32,730 nucleotides of DNA from Verrucomicrobiota bacterium (lineage in GTDB: Bacteria; Auribacterota; JABMQX01; JAFGEW01), in NCBI GenBank assembly GCA_016931415.1, contig JAFGEW010000006.1, positions 92,310-125,039 of the forward strand, given 5' to 3'. Shown here in pieces: positions 6,735-24,663 of the stretch. The notes below the pieces were generated by a model, which was not told where the DNA came from, made no database searches, and saw nothing but the letters and a program-made list of their open reading frames with translations. Numbering within the stretch: the first letter of the stretch is position 1; each line of letters opens with the position of its first letter. Made by a program: the position numbers and the translations under genes.

Positions 6735-7958
6735 ATGCCGGTCTATGAGTACAAGGCTTACGACGCCGCGGGTGCGGCGGTCTCGGGCATCATCGACGCC
6801 GATACGCCCAAGGACGCGCGCGCCAAACTGCGGCGCCAGAATGTGTTCGTCACGAAGGTCGAGGAGGCCGGCGAAGGCGTCTCACTCACGAGCGAGGTGA
6901 AGGTCTCGCGGCTGTGGCGGCGGGTCCGGCGCCAGGACGTGGTGGTCATGACGCGCCAGCTCGCCACGCTCGTGCGTTCGGGCATGCCGCTGATCCAGGC
7001 GCTCACGGCAATCAGCGAGCAGCTCGAAGGCTACCCGATGCAGCGCATCGTCTACAGCGTTCGCGAGCAGGTCAACGCGGGCGAGCCGCTGGCCGATGCG
7101 CTCGAGCAGCACCCGAAGCTGTTCAACGAGCTCTACGTCAACCTGGTGCGCGCGGGCGAGGCAGCCGGCGTGCTCGAGACGGTGCTCGTGCGGCTGGCCG
7201 ACTACATGGAGGCGGTGCAGAAGCAGCGCTCGAAGGTGCTCTCGAGCATGATCTACCCGGCGCTCATGGTGGTGGTCGGCTCGGGCGTGTTGCTGTTCCT
7301 CATGACATTTGTCGTGCCGCGGCTGACGCAGATCTTCACTGAGATGGGCCAGAACCTGCCGGTGGCGACGCAGATCCTCATCGCGATCAGCGGGTTCCTC
7401 GGGAGCTGGCGGTTTCTTGTGCTCATCGCGGTGGTGGTGGCGCTCGTGGTCATCGTGCGGTTCAACACGCGCACGGGCCGGGGCCGCCTCCTGCTGGACC
7501 GGCTGAGACTGCGGGTGCCGGTGGCGGGGTCGCTGGCGCGCAAGATCGCCGTGTCGCGCTTTGCGCGGACGTTCGGTACGCTGCTCGCGGGAGGGATCCA
7601 GGTGCTCAAGGCGCTCGAGATCGTCCAGGGCGTTATCGGCAATGCCGTGATCAGCCAGGCGATCTCCGAGGCGCGCGAGCGCATCGGCGAGGGGGCCTCG
7701 ATCAGCGACGAGCTTCGCAGGAGCCAGGAGTTCCCACCGATCGTGGTGCACATGGTCGCCGTGGGCGAGGCGAGCGGCAGCCTCGAGGAGATGCTGCTCA
7801 ACGTGGCCGACACCTACGACAACGAGGTTGAGATCGCCACGAACAGCCTCATCGCGCTCATCGAGCCGCTCATGATTGTGCTTATGGGGCTGATCGTCGG
7901 TTTCATCGTGCTGTCGATTCTACTGCCCATATTCGAGATGAACCGGTTTGCCCGCTAG
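6735..7958 (+). CDS. gspF: Type II secretion platform protein GspF
   Basis: A 407-residue polytopic membrane protein. It begins MPVYEYKAYDAAGAAVSGII, the usual GspF/PilC start. Two related cytoplasmic four-helix domains (about 70-195 and 270-400) are visible, each with the LARxFGTLLxxGxxxLxAL type pattern. Three membrane segments lie near residues 170-200, 215-245 and 370-400 (IVLMGLIVGFIVLSILLPIF). GspF is the inner-membrane rotor or platform acting with GspE and GspL/M. It lies 30 bases downstream of gspE with its own ribosome site (GGGAG). Confidence 0.95.
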   Translation: MPVYEYKAYDAAGAAVSGIIDADTPKDARAKLRRQNVFVTKVEEAGEGVSLTSEVKVSRLWRRVRRQDVVVMTRQLATLVRSGMPLIQALTAISEQLEGYPMQRIVYSVREQVNAGEPLADALEQHPKLFNELYVNLVRAGEAAGVLETVLVRLADYMEAVQKQRSKVLSSMIYPALMVVVGSGVLLFLMTFVVPRLTQIFTEMGQNLPVATQILIAISGFLGSWRFLVLIAVVVALVVIVRFNTRTGRGRLLLDRLRLRVPVAGSLARKIAVSRFARTFGTLLAGGIQVLKALEIVQGVIGNAVISQAISEARERIGEGASISDELRRSQEFPPIVVHMVAVGEASGSLEEMLLNVADTYDNEVEIATNSLIALIEPLMIVLMGLIVGFIVLSILLPIFEMNRFAR

Positions 7959-9129: not shown

Positions 9130-9691
9130 ACGAACGCGAATGCGACGGATAGACCGTGCGGCGGCCACCTGGCCCGAGCGCCGCGGGTTCACGCTGCTCG
9201 AGGTGCTCGTCGCGATGGCGATCACCTCACTGACGCTTGTGACGATGCTCGCCACGATCGGCGTCGGCCAGCGCAACGTTGCGCTCGCCCGGCTCCAATC
9301 GCTCGGTGCGATGCTGGCGCGCGAGAAGCTCGCCAAGGTGTTTGTGGGCGACTACCCGGTACTCGACCCCAAGGAGGCGGTCAACGCCGGGCGCGAGAAC
9401 GCGCCGAAGGTATGGATCGACGAGGGGGAGTTCATCGAGGAAACCCCATCATGGGAGGAACCGCCCGACGCGTGGCGGGGCGATTTCTACTGGCAGACGA
9501 TTATCGAGGAGCCGGTTGACGCCGAGATGGAAGGACTGCTCGTGCTCACCGTGCGCGTGTATTCGAAGCGGTTCCGCGCGCGCCGCGATCAGCGCGAATG
9601 GGTTGACTACATTGATGAGGATTACCGGTTGCTCGTCGAGGTGGTCACCTACAAGGCGGCCCACTACTACGCCGAGGGGGACGCAAAGTGA
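9110..9691 (+). CDS. gspI: Minor pseudopilin GspI
   Basis: A 193-residue protein if started at ATG 9110, overlapping the end of gspH by 20 bases. ATG 9119 and ATG 9140 are in-frame alternatives and none has a strong ribosome site. From 9110 the leader is 26 residues, with cleavage G26/F27 and then FTLLEVLVAMAITSLTLVTM, Glu at +5. FTLLEVLVAMAI is the form typical of GspI. It probably forms the tip complex with GspJ and GspK. The middle part is rich in acidic residues and tryptophan. Confidence 0.84.
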   Translation: MTSMTNRRTRMRRIDRAAATWPERRGFTLLEVLVAMAITSLTLVTMLATIGVGQRNVALARLQSLGAMLAREKLAKVFVGDYPVLDPKEAVNAGRENAPKVWIDEGEFIEETPSWEEPPDAWRGDFYWQTIIEEPVDAEMEGLLVLTVRVYSKRFRARRDQREWVDYIDEDYRLLVEVVTYKAAHYYAEGDAK

Positions 9692-10446
9692 CACGGCCGC
9701 CGCGACAGGTCCGGGCGAGCATACGCGGCTTGACGCTCATCGAGCTGCTCGTGGCGTTGACGATCCTGGCCATCCTGCTCTCATCGGTTTACGGGACGTT
9801 CATATCGGCCATGAACGCGATCCGTCGCGCGCGCACCGATGATGGGATCTACCAGGTGGCTCGGACCGTCATGGATCGCATCAGCATGGACCTCGAGATG
9901 ACCTATTACCAGCCTGGTCCAGACCGGCCCGGCCAGCCAACGCAGCTCTTCATCGGGCTCGACCGCAGCGAGGGTGACTACGCCCGCGACCGGCTCGACT
10001 TCTTGGCGGCGTGTCACATCCTGGCGCGAGACGGCCGCCCCGAGACCGATGTGGTCGAGATAAGCTACTACATTGACGACACGCTCTACGACCGCCCGCT
10101 GCTTGTGCGGCGCGAGGACCCGTTACCCGACTTCGACCTGCGCCATGGCGGTACGTTGCGCGTGCTGGCCGAGAACGTTGTCTCGCTCAACTTCCGCTAC
10201 CGCGAGCGGAGCCCCGAGCCGAACACACGAAGCCGGCCCGCGGACGCCGCGGCCAGAGCCGAGGAGGCCCAAAAGGCCGAGCAGGAGTTGGAGTGGTTCG
10301 ATGCGTGGAACGCCGATACGAACGAGAATCCATCGAAGAGCCTGCCAGAGCTCGTTGAAGTGACCTTCGTGTTGCGCGACAAGGATGGGGCCGAGTACAC
10401 GTTCTCAACAACGGTGCAACTGCACCCGTACTACTCATGGCAATAG
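9688..10446 (+). CDS. gspJ: Minor pseudopilin GspJ
   Basis: A 252-residue protein starting at GTG 9688, which overlaps the gspI stop (GTGA), so translation is likely coupled. The leader is 14 residues, with cleavage G14/L15 and then LTLIELLVALTILAILLSSV, Glu at +5. The long beta-rich body and the final strand (LVEVTFVLRDKDGAEY) fit GspJ. The last roughly 20 codons have a diverged second copy just beyond the stop that now forms the start of gspK. A Glu/Ala-rich insertion near residues 188-205 is predicted to be helical. Confidence 0.88.
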   Translation: MTRPPRQVRASIRGLTLIELLVALTILAILLSSVYGTFISAMNAIRRARTDDGIYQVARTVMDRISMDLEMTYYQPGPDRPGQPTQLFIGLDRSEGDYARDRLDFLAACHILARDGRPETDVVEISYYIDDTLYDRPLLVRREDPLPDFDLRHGGTLRVLAENVVSLNFRYRERSPEPNTRSRPADAAARAEEAQKAEQELEWFDAWNADTNENPSKSLPELVEVTFVLRDKDGAEYTFSTTVQLHPYYSWQ

Positions 10447-10502
10447 TGTTGCGCGACAAGGGCGGAATCGAGCACATGACTTCAGCAACGATACAACTGC
10501 AC
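10369..10502 (+). repeat. 77-bp-period near-duplication joining gspJ 3' end and gspK 5' end
   Basis: Bases 10369-10425 and 10446-10502 align without gaps at 44 of 57 positions by eye; the first 16 bases (GTGTTGCGCGACAAGG) are identical. The period is 77, not a multiple of three. Copy 1 is read in the gspJ frame and copy 2 in the gspK frame, yet both give the same peptide type: VLRDKDGAEYTFSTTVQLH against VLRDKGGIEHMTSATIQLH. Identity fades after the shared CTGCAC. Confidence 0.85.
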
Positions 10503-11651
10503 GTGCAGTGCCTGTGGAAGACCCGTTGGCGAGACCACTGCAGTACGCGTAGCCGAAGCGGTATCGCATTGATTGTTGTGCTGGCGATCGTGGCGATCCT
10601 GAGCGTAGTCGTGCTCGAGTTCGCATCCTCGATCCGCGTCGAGATGTACGTGAGCGCCAACTACGACGCGCACACCCAAGCGCTCTACGCGGCTAAGGCA
10701 GGGCTTGAGTACGCGATCTACGTGCTACGCACCGACGAGGACATGAACAAGGACTGGCTCGGCGACGCGTGGGCCAAACCGCTCGAGCTCACCATCGGCG
10801 CCCCGGACCGCGCGCCAGAACCCGAAAGCGTGGACGGCAGCGACGAGTACACATTGTACACGCCGCCGGCGCGCGAGCGCGACGCGAGGGTCGTCGAAGC
10901 CCGCATCGGCGGCACGGCGCGTGTGAGCATTACCGACGAGGAGCGGAAGATCGGCCTCTACTCAGTACACGGCTCGCAAGTGTCCGGGATCGTGCGGGAG
11001 ACACTCGAACGGCTTCTTGATGAGCTCCATGTGCCGGGCGCGGCCTACAACGCCTCCGACATCGTCGAGCAGATAGTCGACTGGACCGACCAAGACGACG
11101 AAGGCGTGTGGGAGTACACCTACGAAGGGCTCGAGGACCCCTACGTGCCGACAAACCGGGCGTTCAGGAGCGTCGCTGAGCTGCGCCTGCTTGCCGACAT
11201 GAGTGACGCGCTCCTCTACGGTACGGTGCCGTTTCCTGAGGACCAAGAGGAGCGCGATGTCTACGAGAATGGGCTCCAGAGCGACTGGTCATACGGGTTG
11301 ATCAACTTCGTCCACGCCCAGTCGATTGGCTTGATCAACATCAATACGGCGCCGCGTGAAGTGCTGACCGCGTTGTTCGATGACTCGTATGCTGCTGAGG
11401 AGATCATCGACTGGCGGCGTGAGCAAGGCGGGTTCAGCAACACGGACGACGTTCTGGCGATCGTTCAGGAGGCGACGGGGAACGATCCAACGGTGACACG
11501 TGCCCTTCCGCTAACGGTGCGGAGCCTGTTCTTTCGGATCACCTCGGTGGGCGAGTACCACAACGTGCGGGTCAAGATCACGGCGATCGTGTACTGCAGC
11601 ACGCGCGGTGATGTCTCCGTGCAGTACTACCGGGTCGAGACCGTGCAGTGA
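10437..11651 (+). CDS. gspK: Minor pseudopilin GspK
   Basis: A 404-residue protein, the largest pseudopilin as expected for GspK. From ATG 10437 (overlapping the gspJ stop by 10 bases) the leader would be 42 residues, longer than usual, with cleavage in SRSG/IALIVVLAIVAIL. Later starts at ATG 10476 or GTG 10503 would give 29- or 20-residue leaders and may be the real ones. As in known GspK proteins, Glu at +5 is absent. The body has the GspK features LYAAKAGLEYAI, ITDEERKIGLYSVHG, VDWTDQDD and ININTAPREVLTALF (helix-hairpin-helix-like). Its N-terminal 24 residues derive from a copy of the gspJ tail. Confidence 0.87.
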   Translation: MAIVLRDKGGIEHMTSATIQLHVQCLWKTRWRDHCSTRSRSGIALIVVLAIVAILSVVVLEFASSIRVEMYVSANYDAHTQALYAAKAGLEYAIYVLRTDEDMNKDWLGDAWAKPLELTIGAPDRAPEPESVDGSDEYTLYTPPARERDARVVEARIGGTARVSITDEERKIGLYSVHGSQVSGIVRETLERLLDELHVPGAAYNASDIVEQIVDWTDQDDEGVWEYTYEGLEDPYVPTNRAFRSVAELRLLADMSDALLYGTVPFPEDQEERDVYENGLQSDWSYGLINFVHAQSIGLININTAPREVLTALFDDSYAAEEIIDWRREQGGFSNTDDVLAIVQEATGNDPTVTRALPLTVRSLFFRITSVGEYHNVRVKITAIVYCSTRGDVSVQYYRVETVQ

Positions 11652-11741
11652 GGGTTGCGCGAGCAGTATCAGACATGCAATAGTCCGACGGTGTCGGGCC
11701 ACTGCGTCGGGCGGTCGCCCGGCGCGAATCAAGGAGAGATC

Positions 11742-13451
11742 GTGGCGGGCAGCACGCGTGAGATGACAGTGGCGGGCCGGGGCATCGGCATCGATGTCGG
11801 CTCGTATTCGGTCAAAGTGGCCGTCGTGCGGCGGCAGCTCAACCGGCTCGTGCTCGAGCAGGTCGTCGAGCGGCCGATTGCGCGTGAGGGTGCCGGGCGG
11901 CCCGCCGCGGCGGTGTTGGCCGAAGCGGTCGCCTCGGCGATGGACGAGGTGCGCGTCGGCCGGGCGATTGTGACCGTGGGCGTGCCGACGCAGCTTGCCA
12001 CGGTGCGCAATCTCGACGTGCCGTTCGATGACGAAGAGCGCATCCGCCAGGTCGTCAAGGCTGAGGTCGAACCGCACCTGCCGTTTTCTGCTGAGGAGAT
12101 CGTCGTTGATTTTGCCCCCACCGGCGTTGGGCGAGAGGCTCCGGCCGTCGAGGAGGGTGCCGCGGCTCCGATGCCGACGCCGACCAACCTGCTCATTACC
12201 GCCGTGCAGAAGCGCGTCGTAGGCGAGCTGCTCGGCGCGGTGGGTTCCGAGACGCTGGATCCCGAGGTGGTCGATGTCGAGTACATGGGTGCGCTCTCGG
12301 CCGTGCTCAGACTCGCACCCGAGACGATCGAGGGCGGCGAGCTCGTTGTCGATGTGGGCGCGGTGAAGACGTCGGTCATCTACGCCCAGAAGGGCCGGCC
12401 GCTTGCCGTGCGTTCGATCAACTTCGGCGGCGACACGCTTACCCAGGCAATCGCTGATGCCACAGGCGCGCCATTCGCCGACGCCGAGCGTGACAAACCA
12501 TCGCACCCCATCGTGGCCGAGGGCGAAGGCGCGCTGTCGGGCGCGGCGCAGGCTATCAACAACGCACTGCTCGGGCTGCGCCGGGGGCTTGACCAGACGT
12601 TGCGGTTTTTCGCGAGCCCGTTTGGCGAGGCCGCCTACGAGCGTGTCGTGCTTACAGGCGGCGGCGCTTCAATGCCAGGTCTGCAGGCGTGGCTTGCCGC
12701 GACGCTCGGACGCGAGGTTCGCGTGCTCGATGGGCTCGGGGCCATGCGCAGTGGTGTGGGCGATGAGGTGGCCGTGGCGCGCTTCGCCACCGCGATCGGG
12801 CTGGCGCTGCGGGGCGTTGGCGAGAGTGTTGCCCTGCACAACTTCCGTCAGGAAGAGCTTGGCTACGCCAATCCGCTCAAACGACTCATCAAGTACATCG
12901 CCCCGGCGGTGGCGCTGATTATCGCCATCATCCTGGCGGGCGTCGCTGCGTCGTTCATCTCGAACAAGACGACAACCGAAGAGGCGGAGCGATATCAGGC
13001 AATGATGCGCGATGAGCTGCGCAAGATCCTCGGTCCAGACGCGCCGCTCGTCTCACTCGAGGACGCCCAACAGGTGGTCAACGTGCGGACGCTGGAGCTT
13101 CAGGAACTTGCCGGCGAGAACCCGCGGTCGGTGCTCGACGTGATCTACGAGCTATCACGGGTCTGCTATGGGGGGGTGCTGCCGCCGGACGATCTGGAGT
13201 TGCCGCAGGATCCCGAGAAGGCGGCCGAGATGTTTCTCGCACGCTCGAAACCGTGGGAGATTCAGATCAGCAAGTTTCAGATGGCCAGCGGGCGCGTCGA
13301 CATCGAGGGCACGGCGGCGAGCTACAGCGCTGTGAACCAGCTCAAGCTCGCCCTCGAGAAGTCGCCGCTGTTCTCCGACGTCCAGGTCCGTGATTCGCGC
13401 CTCGACAAGGGACGCCAGACTCTCAAGATCACCATGCGGCTTGAAGGATAG
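11742..13451 (+). CDS. gspL: PilM/GspL-like actin-fold protein with membrane anchor and periplasmic domain
   Basis: A 569-residue protein from GTG 11742 (AAGGAG five bases ahead). The frame is open upstream to 11655, but that segment is not protein-like. The N-terminal part is an actin/PilM-like ATPase fold: GIDVGSYSVKVAVV (phosphate-1 loop), VDVGAVKTSVIY (phosphate-2) and VVLTGGGASMPGL (adenosine). A membrane helix lies near residues 384-408 (APAVALIIAIILAGVAAS), followed by a coiled segment and a small alpha/beta periplasmic domain. This is GspL architecture with an N-terminus closer to PilM, so it links GspE to the platform. The downstream gene is its likely GspM partner. pilM is an alternative name. 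Confidence 0.8.
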   Translation: MAGSTREMTVAGRGIGIDVGSYSVKVAVVRRQLNRLVLEQVVERPIAREGAGRPAAAVLAEAVASAMDEVRVGRAIVTVGVPTQLATVRNLDVPFDDEERIRQVVKAEVEPHLPFSAEEIVVDFAPTGVGREAPAVEEGAAAPMPTPTNLLITAVQKRVVGELLGAVGSETLDPEVVDVEYMGALSAVLRLAPETIEGGELVVDVGAVKTSVIYAQKGRPLAVRSINFGGDTLTQAIADATGAPFADAERDKPSHPIVAEGEGALSGAAQAINNALLGLRRGLDQTLRFFASPFGEAAYERVVLTGGGASMPGLQAWLAATLGREVRVLDGLGAMRSGVGDEVAVARFATAIGLALRGVGESVALHNFRQEELGYANPLKRLIKYIAPAVALIIAIILAGVAASFISNKTTTEEAERYQAMMRDELRKILGPDAPLVSLEDAQQVVNVRTLELQELAGENPRSVLDVIYELSRVCYGGVLPPDDLELPQDPEKAAEMFLARSKPWEIQISKFQMASGRVDIEGTAASYSAVNQLKLALEKSPLFSDVQVRDSRLDKGRQTLKITMRLEG

Positions 13452-23364: not shown

Positions 23365-24663
23365 CTAATAGCCGGTAGGCGACCAAGCCGGGTACGACTC
23401 GTTGCCCGGGAACCTCGTGATCTGCACGGGCTTCGGGTCGAACACGTCGAGCATATAGAGGTCCATCGCGCCCGAGCGCGGCTCGCGCACGTAGATGATG
23501 TGCCGTCCGTCGGGGGCGAAGTTCGGGTCCTCGTGGTTGGCCGCGTCGAACGTGAGCTGCTTGACCTTGCCGGTCTTCAGGTCGACGACGAAGATCTGCC
23601 GACGGCCCTGAGTCTTGGCGCTGAACGCGATGAGGTCACCGTGCTTGGCCGAGGGCGCCCAGTCGAGCGAGGTCATCTCGCGGTAGCCCGTGAGCAGCCG
23701 GCGCTGACCGGTGCCGTCGGCGTTCATGACGTAGAGCTGCGGCCCGCCCTCGACGTTGGAAACGTAGGCGATGCGCTGCCCGTCGTGCGACCAGACCGGG
23801 CAGGTCGAGAGCCGGCCGACACTGCGCGTGAGCCGGGTCAGGTTCCTGCCGTCGGTGTCCATCGTGTAGACGTCGGGCGTGCCGCTGCGGCTCAGGACGA
23901 GGGCGATCTTCTTCCCGTCGGGAGACACCGCCGCGGCGTAGTTCAGGCCGGGGTAGGTGGCCACGGCGACGCGCTGACCGCGCCGGATGTCGATGCGGTA
24001 CAGGTCTGGATCGCCTTTGTGCATCGAGGTGTAGTAAATGGCTTTGCCGTCGGGCGCCCAGTCGGGCGAGACCGCCACACCCTTGTCCTTGGTGACGCGC
24101 CGCAGGTTGTGGCCGTCATAGTCGATCAGGTACAGGTCCTTGCCGCCGTCCGGGTTCTCCTTGATGAACGCGATCTGCGTCCGCGCGATGCCCTCGACAC
24201 CGACCAGGGTCTTGAGTATCTCTTCGCTGAGCGCGTGGACGAGGCGGCGGCGTCCCTCGGCCGAGCCCTTGACCCGGCGGCTGAGCAGCACGCGGCCCGA
24301 GCCGGTATCCTGGACCTGGACCTGGACGGTGAGCGAATCGCCGGCGCGGCGGTAGTCGGTCTGGAACAGCAGCGTTGCCCCCAGCCCGCGCCAGTACTCG
24401 AGCTTGGCTGACTGTGTGTTGGCCGGGTCGTCGATGACCCTGTAGTAGCCGCAGTTGTCCATGTCGAAACGCAGCGCGCTTGTCAACTCGCGGCTCAGCT
24501 CCGCCTTGACGCGCTGCCCGTCCTCGGTGAAATCGAGCAGGGCGATCTTGGCCTTATCGTGGGGGCCCTTCGTGACGATGATCAGATCGCGGGCGCCGTG
24601 GACAAAGCCCGGCAAGCAGACGAGCACCGCCAGGCACAGGGTCGAAAGCAGTCTGGTTCGCAT
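23365..24663 (-). CDS. tolB: Tol-Pal system beta-propeller protein TolB
   Basis: A 432-residue periplasmic protein with a Sec signal peptide (LLSTLCLAVLVCLPGFVHGA). The N-terminal domain (about 25-165) has the TolB D1 pattern IALLDF and FQTDYRRAGDSLTVQVQVQD. A six-bladed propeller (about 170-430) follows with repeats such as SPDWAPDGKAIYYTS, AAVSPDGKKIALVLS and CPVWSHDGQRIAYVS, ending SYPAWSPTGY. TolB transfers between Pal and TolA during outer-membrane constriction. It lies 25 bases after tolA. Confidence 0.95.
   Translation of the reverse strand: MRTRLLSTLCLAVLVCLPGFVHGARDLIIVTKGPHDKAKIALLDFTEDGQRVKAELSRELTSALRFDMDNCGYYRVIDDPANTQSAKLEYWRGLGATLLFQTDYRRAGDSLTVQVQVQDTGSGRVLLSRRVKGSAEGRRRLVHALSEEILKTLVGVEGIARTQIAFIKENPDGGKDLYLIDYDGHNLRRVTKDKGVAVSPDWAPDGKAIYYTSMHKGDPDLYRIDIRRGQRVAVATYPGLNYAAAVSPDGKKIALVLSRSGTPDVYTMDTDGRNLTRLTRSVGRLSTCPVWSHDGQRIAYVSNVEGGPQLYVMNADGTGQRRLLTGYREMTSLDWAPSAKHGDLIAFSAKTQGRRQIFVVDLKTGKVKQLTFDAANHEDPNFAPDGRHIIYVREPRSGAMDLYMLDVFDPKPVQITRFPGNESYPAWSPTGY

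Follow-up and report, generated by a model that had tools for sequence, protein, structure and literature searches.

An old tandem duplication of about 77 bases is present at the junction of gspJ and gspK in the window, the whole stretch of 32,730 nucleotides analysed here. The second copy, which precedes the conserved part of gspK, is probably the relic of an ordinary, near-neutral and lineage-specific event.

The gspJ-gspK junction and its repeat

The window contained a type II secretion operon with the genes of a PDZ protein, a GspD-type secretin and GspE, followed by gspF, gspG, gspH, gspI, gspJ and gspK, the last six of which were named from their position and prepilin motifs. The identity of GspJ was based on its position, its prepilin motif, its C-terminal tail and a sub-cut-off match to T2SSJ (24.6 bits, just under the cut-off of 28); the N_methyl profile scored above its cut-off, and TIGR01711 gave a weak match only. 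GspK matched the NCBIfam model T2SS_GspK (NF037980) with 146.1 bits against a cut-off of 130, the model beginning at residue 41, and both T2SSK_1st and T2SSK were above their cut-offs. The protein shared with the type II secretion minor pseudopilin GspK the curated-cut-off family match, the class III signal (Gly and a hydrophobic stretch) and the usual operon neighbours, but it differed from most of the relatives examined in a possible longer leader of 20, 29 or 42 residues. Directly 3' of gspK, a protein of 598 residues (11655-13451) joined PilM and PilN domains; this fusion occupied the place expected for GspL and is probably a GspL equivalent. The features of the junction are as follows.

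9688..10446, + strand: gspJ, 252 aa, prepilin motif RG/LTLIELLVALT (operon position, N_methyl, tail similarity)
10369..10425, + strand: copy 1, the native GspJ C-terminus VLRDKDGAEYTFSTTVQLH (repeat match; resembles the GspJ tails of L077, L035, L045 and L078)
10426..10445, + strand: spacer that completes the 77-base unit; it contains the gspK ATG (10437-10439) and ends with the TA of the gspJ stop (weak match, 8/17)
10437..11651, + strand: gspK open frame, 404 aa from ATG 10437 (NCBIfam T2SS_GspK, T2SSK_1st, T2SSK)
10444..10446, + strand: gspJ stop TAG, across the copy boundary 10445/10446 (sequence)
10446..10502, + strand: copy 2, VLRDKGGIEHMTSATIQLH in the gspK frame, the decayed duplicate of the GspJ tail (repeat match, shuffles, codon analysis)
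10476..10478, + strand: candidate start ATG of gspK within copy 2, where copy 1 has ACG; preceded by the Shine-Dalgarno-like AAGGGCGGA at 10458-10466 and giving a leader of 29 residues (Shine-Dalgarno energy -6.1)
10503..10505, + strand: candidate gspK start GTG just past copy 2, with a leader of 20 residues (no Shine-Dalgarno match)
10560..10562, + strand: codon of Gly42, after which prepilin cleavage is predicted, SRSG/IALIVVLAIVAIL (translation motif; family model from residue 41)

Ungapped comparison of 10369-10425 with 10446-10502 revealed 44 identical bases of 57 at a period of 77, and our recount agreed with the first-pass annotation, which had described these two segments. The pair scored 31 (+1/-1, ungapped). 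Dinucleotide shuffling of the 300-base region reached no more than 14 in 300 trials, and 200 codon-permuted gspJ/gspK junctions gave no more than 15. Chance similarity was rejected on these values, and the comparison with shuffled sequence that had been proposed as a check thus came out in favour of the repeat. Similarity above chance was found at a single fixed offset (77), as in a tandem-duplication relic. Local alignment matched 10369-10442 with 10446-10519 at 52 of 74 columns. The extension past the 57-base core was weak, with 8 of 17 bases matching over its 17 columns. With it, the match covered 74 bases of the 77-base period, which would fit an old tandem duplication. The ATG at 10437-10439 lay between the copies as had been described, whereas the gspJ stop, which had been placed there too, straddled the boundary between them. 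A perfect 12-base palindrome, CTGCACGTGCAG, had its midpoint where copy 2 ends (10497-10508) and is a candidate feature only.

The differences were unevenly distributed along the 57-base pair: the first 16 and the last 9 bases were identical, and all 13 mismatches were central. A mismatch-free start of 16 bases had a chance of about 0.007. Constraint on the terminal AAGG of this clean start, a short tract of conversion, or chance could each account for it. The overall divergence also bears on a possible assembly artefact, in which two strain variants of the junction were joined in series. The genome was fragmented (134 contigs, contamination 4.48), which would favour such an error, but copies with 77% identity differ more than an ordinary strain bubble would allow, and the gspJ and gspK frames were both intact, making an artefact exceedingly improbable.

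The GspJ tails of relatives followed the pattern LP-x-AV-x-VT-x-x-L and then TF-x-T-x-V, as in L077 (IPRAVKVMFTLTESGGREKVFTTVV) and L035 (LPKAIEITLSIQN...LIFSTMV). The GspJ tail of the window, LPELVEVTFVLRDKDGAEYTFSTTVQLH, aligned with them; since it fitted their pattern, copy 1 represents the ancestral tail of GspJ, from which copy 2 is derived. The segment LPELVEVTF, which preceded the repeat in GspJ, was absent ahead of copy 2. Comparison of the tails supports copying out of the 3' end of gspJ into the sequence ahead of gspK.

Codon analysis of the copied peptide

Copy 2 lay in the gspK frame, and the residues listed earlier as shared between the copies (VLRDK, G, E, S, T and QLH) were correct, amounting to 12 of 19. 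The first-pass annotation had taken this kept peptide as a sign that copy 2 was translated, and had proposed a comparison of synonymous and nonsynonymous changes between the copies. That comparison left translation unsupported: among the 19 codons compared, one of the eight changed codons was synonymous, and the 13 base changes were spread evenly over codon positions 1, 2 and 3 (5, 4 and 4). Random placement of 13 changes kept a mean of 10.5 of the 19 residues, and 12 or more were kept in 23% of the simulations. The retention was therefore that expected from a DNA identity of 44/57, and the argument for translation failed, as retention was at the level of chance and no codon-position bias accompanied it. 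Neither the codon positions nor the residue simulation gave a signal of purifying selection on the copy 2 peptide, with low power at 19 codons, and selection on the copied peptide was left unsupported as an explanation. The simulations also showed that 59% of the sequences with 13 random changes contained no stop, and the frame of copy 2 was open because it began as coding sequence. More generally, a peptide kept in a new frame is poor proof of translation where DNA identity alone suffices.

Start codon and leader of gspK

Prepilins carry hydrophilic leaders of varying length that end in Gly and are cleaved off by prepilin peptidase (PMC4471445; PMC10191384). GspK of the window carried the class III signal of a Gly followed by a hydrophobic stretch, SRSG/IALIVVLAIVAIL, and a Peptidase_A24 gene for a prepilin peptidase was found in the same genome (71.7 bits). 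Copy 2 was located entirely upstream of the predicted cleavage at Gly42, and the basic, leader-like stretch KTRWRDHCSTRSRSG was outside the strong repeat. Because of this position, mature GspK should be identical whichever start is used; judged from the motif, any translated part of copy 2 should be trimmed off, and the predicted mature GspK contains no copy 2 residues. The suggestion that a secretion-tip protein had gained a new N-terminus from its operon neighbour was thus not borne out, as copy 2 precedes the predicted cleavage in a prepilin.

Three start codons were compared for gspK. The Shine-Dalgarno energy was -6.1 kcal/mol for ATG 10476, close to that of gspF (-6.2) and weaker than those of gspE, gspG and gspJ, and it was 0.0 for both ATG 10437 and GTG 10503, ahead of which the energy scan detected no Shine-Dalgarno sequence. 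About one fifth of the positions in the region scored as well as ATG 10476. The start at ATG 10437 would give a leader of 42 residues and lies near the gspJ stop, an overlapping layout that suits translational coupling. Published prepilin leaders have 6 to 26 residues (PMC4471445), and very long ones have been noted (PMC10191384); the likely GspK leaders of the relatives examined were mostly of 5-22 residues, with a few of about 29-32. ATG 10437 was the least supported of the three starts, and ATG 10476 and GTG 10503 were level on the data.

These results bear on two accounts in which copy 2 has a function. In the first, the duplication gave gspK its start, AAGGGCGGA in copy 2 serving as the ribosome-binding site and ATG 10476 and the codons after it as the beginning of the leader. 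ATG 10476 was the sole ATG candidate with a Shine-Dalgarno match, and the unchanged part of copy 2 was the stretch ending in AAGG. Against this, the score was matched at so many positions of the region, the gspI candidate with the shortest leader in the same operon also had no Shine-Dalgarno match, and AAGG was 14 bases from ATG 10476, at the far limit of useful spacing. We consider this account unlikely. That a slipped copy of the gspJ tail was recruited as both the ribosome-binding site and the leader start of gspK, so that a single 77-base duplication yielded both the stop codon of gspJ and the start signal of gspK, is likewise doubtful. In the second account, the strong form of the earlier proposal, translation begins at ATG 10437 and runs through copy 2, whose peptide is maintained by selection as a functional leader of 42 residues. 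The open frame and the overlap of this ATG with the gspJ stop agree with it, but residue retention was no more than DNA identity predicts and showed no codon-position bias, the ATG had no Shine-Dalgarno match, the leader would exceed those of the relatives, and it would be cleaved away; we regard it as very improbable. Of the earlier interpretation, the duplication and its direction stood, whereas an extended leader of 42 residues applies only if ATG 10437 is used, and its other branch, a relic ahead of a later start, is at least as likely.

The duplication relic and its genomic background

In the relic account, which we prefer, this lineage would have duplicated a unit of about 77 bases in tandem where gspJ and gspK meet, and copy 1 would have stayed the working C-terminus of GspJ. 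If the unit was 10369-10445, the boundary 10445/10446 would have created the present gspJ stop (TA/G), and the former gspJ end would then have lain beyond copy 2. Freed from coding GspJ, copy 2 may have decayed at a near-neutral rate and become the stretch that separates the gspJ stop from the conserved portion of gspK. It would be untranslated with a start at GTG 10503, and partly or wholly leader with a start at ATG 10476 or ATG 10437; prepilin peptidase would in every case cut after Gly42 and produce a mature GspK devoid of copy 2. The weakest step concerns the reading frame. From copy 2 the old gspJ frame continued into gspK with no stop, which requires the loss of an ancestral stop or of a frame difference, presumably in the decayed part. 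This uninterrupted frame counts against a relic. So does the clean 16-base start of copy 2, since plain neutral decay would not be expected to leave one, and the state before the duplication was judged from relatives of other families or phyla. Read as a relic, the junction is a clear, if minor, illustration that a tandem duplication between operon genes can move a stop codon and lengthen the next frame with neither protein harmed; in a prepilin, the added sequence falls in the disposable leader.

On the evidence of relatives from other families, the duplication appears to be specific to this lineage. No DNA match to the junction was found in 43 other genomes of the phylum, and no gspJ-tail repeat was found at 29 other gspK upstream regions, in 15 of which gspJ was identified; all relatives compared belonged to other families or phyla, the class having one other genome, from another family, with weak partial matches. 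The sole elevated self-score among the upstream regions came from L005, where an unrelated AT-rich repeat had a period of 32. A contig scan with a GspK query returned no loci, and a GspE-based scan returned 80 loci from distant groups. A dispersed repeat was rejected, as a DNA search found no second site of the junction in its own genome or phylum, and a structured RNA was rejected because there was no Rfam match and folding was no better than that of shuffles (z -0.41). In the literature searched on overlap evolution and slippage, nothing specific to the gspJ-gspK case came up.

A survey covering 358 kb of the genome detected 41 near-tandem repeats (period 20-300, score of at least 20). The period was not divisible by three in ten of them, most of which lay between likely genes, and the gspJ-gspK pair was the clearest of those ten with both copies in genes identified by homology. 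Short tandem duplications of such periods were common in the genome, which agrees with the relic account. In L141, the 3' tail of a gene together with its stop (KVRELPEAHRRKPAEEKKNS and the stop codon) was recently duplicated at 7216-7358 and 7473-7615, with a period of 257 and 97% identity, indicating that gene-tail duplication has occurred elsewhere in this genome. The gspJ-gspK repeat resembled the known kind of short tandem duplication at gene boundaries (slippage or short-homology type), which leaves a gene-tail relic and to which the L141 case is similar, in its adjacent direct copies, its fixed period, and one working tail with one copy downstream. It differed in that copy 2 was in an open frame joined to the next gene and the copies were far more decayed.

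Other repeats were also observed. An imperfect repeat close to the beginning of the secretin gene (2862-2937) had a period of 27, 71% identity and a score of 32, and another at 23712-23791, with a period of 135 and 64% identity, was in a likely coding frame with no Pfam match. One motif, CAATCGCCCCTGACGGGGCT, recurred in intergenic arrays with periods of 70-73 at L149:17188-17499, L140:17350-17511 and L139:11165-11254; since these arrays are spread across several contigs of the genome, they look like a dispersed palindromic repeat family.
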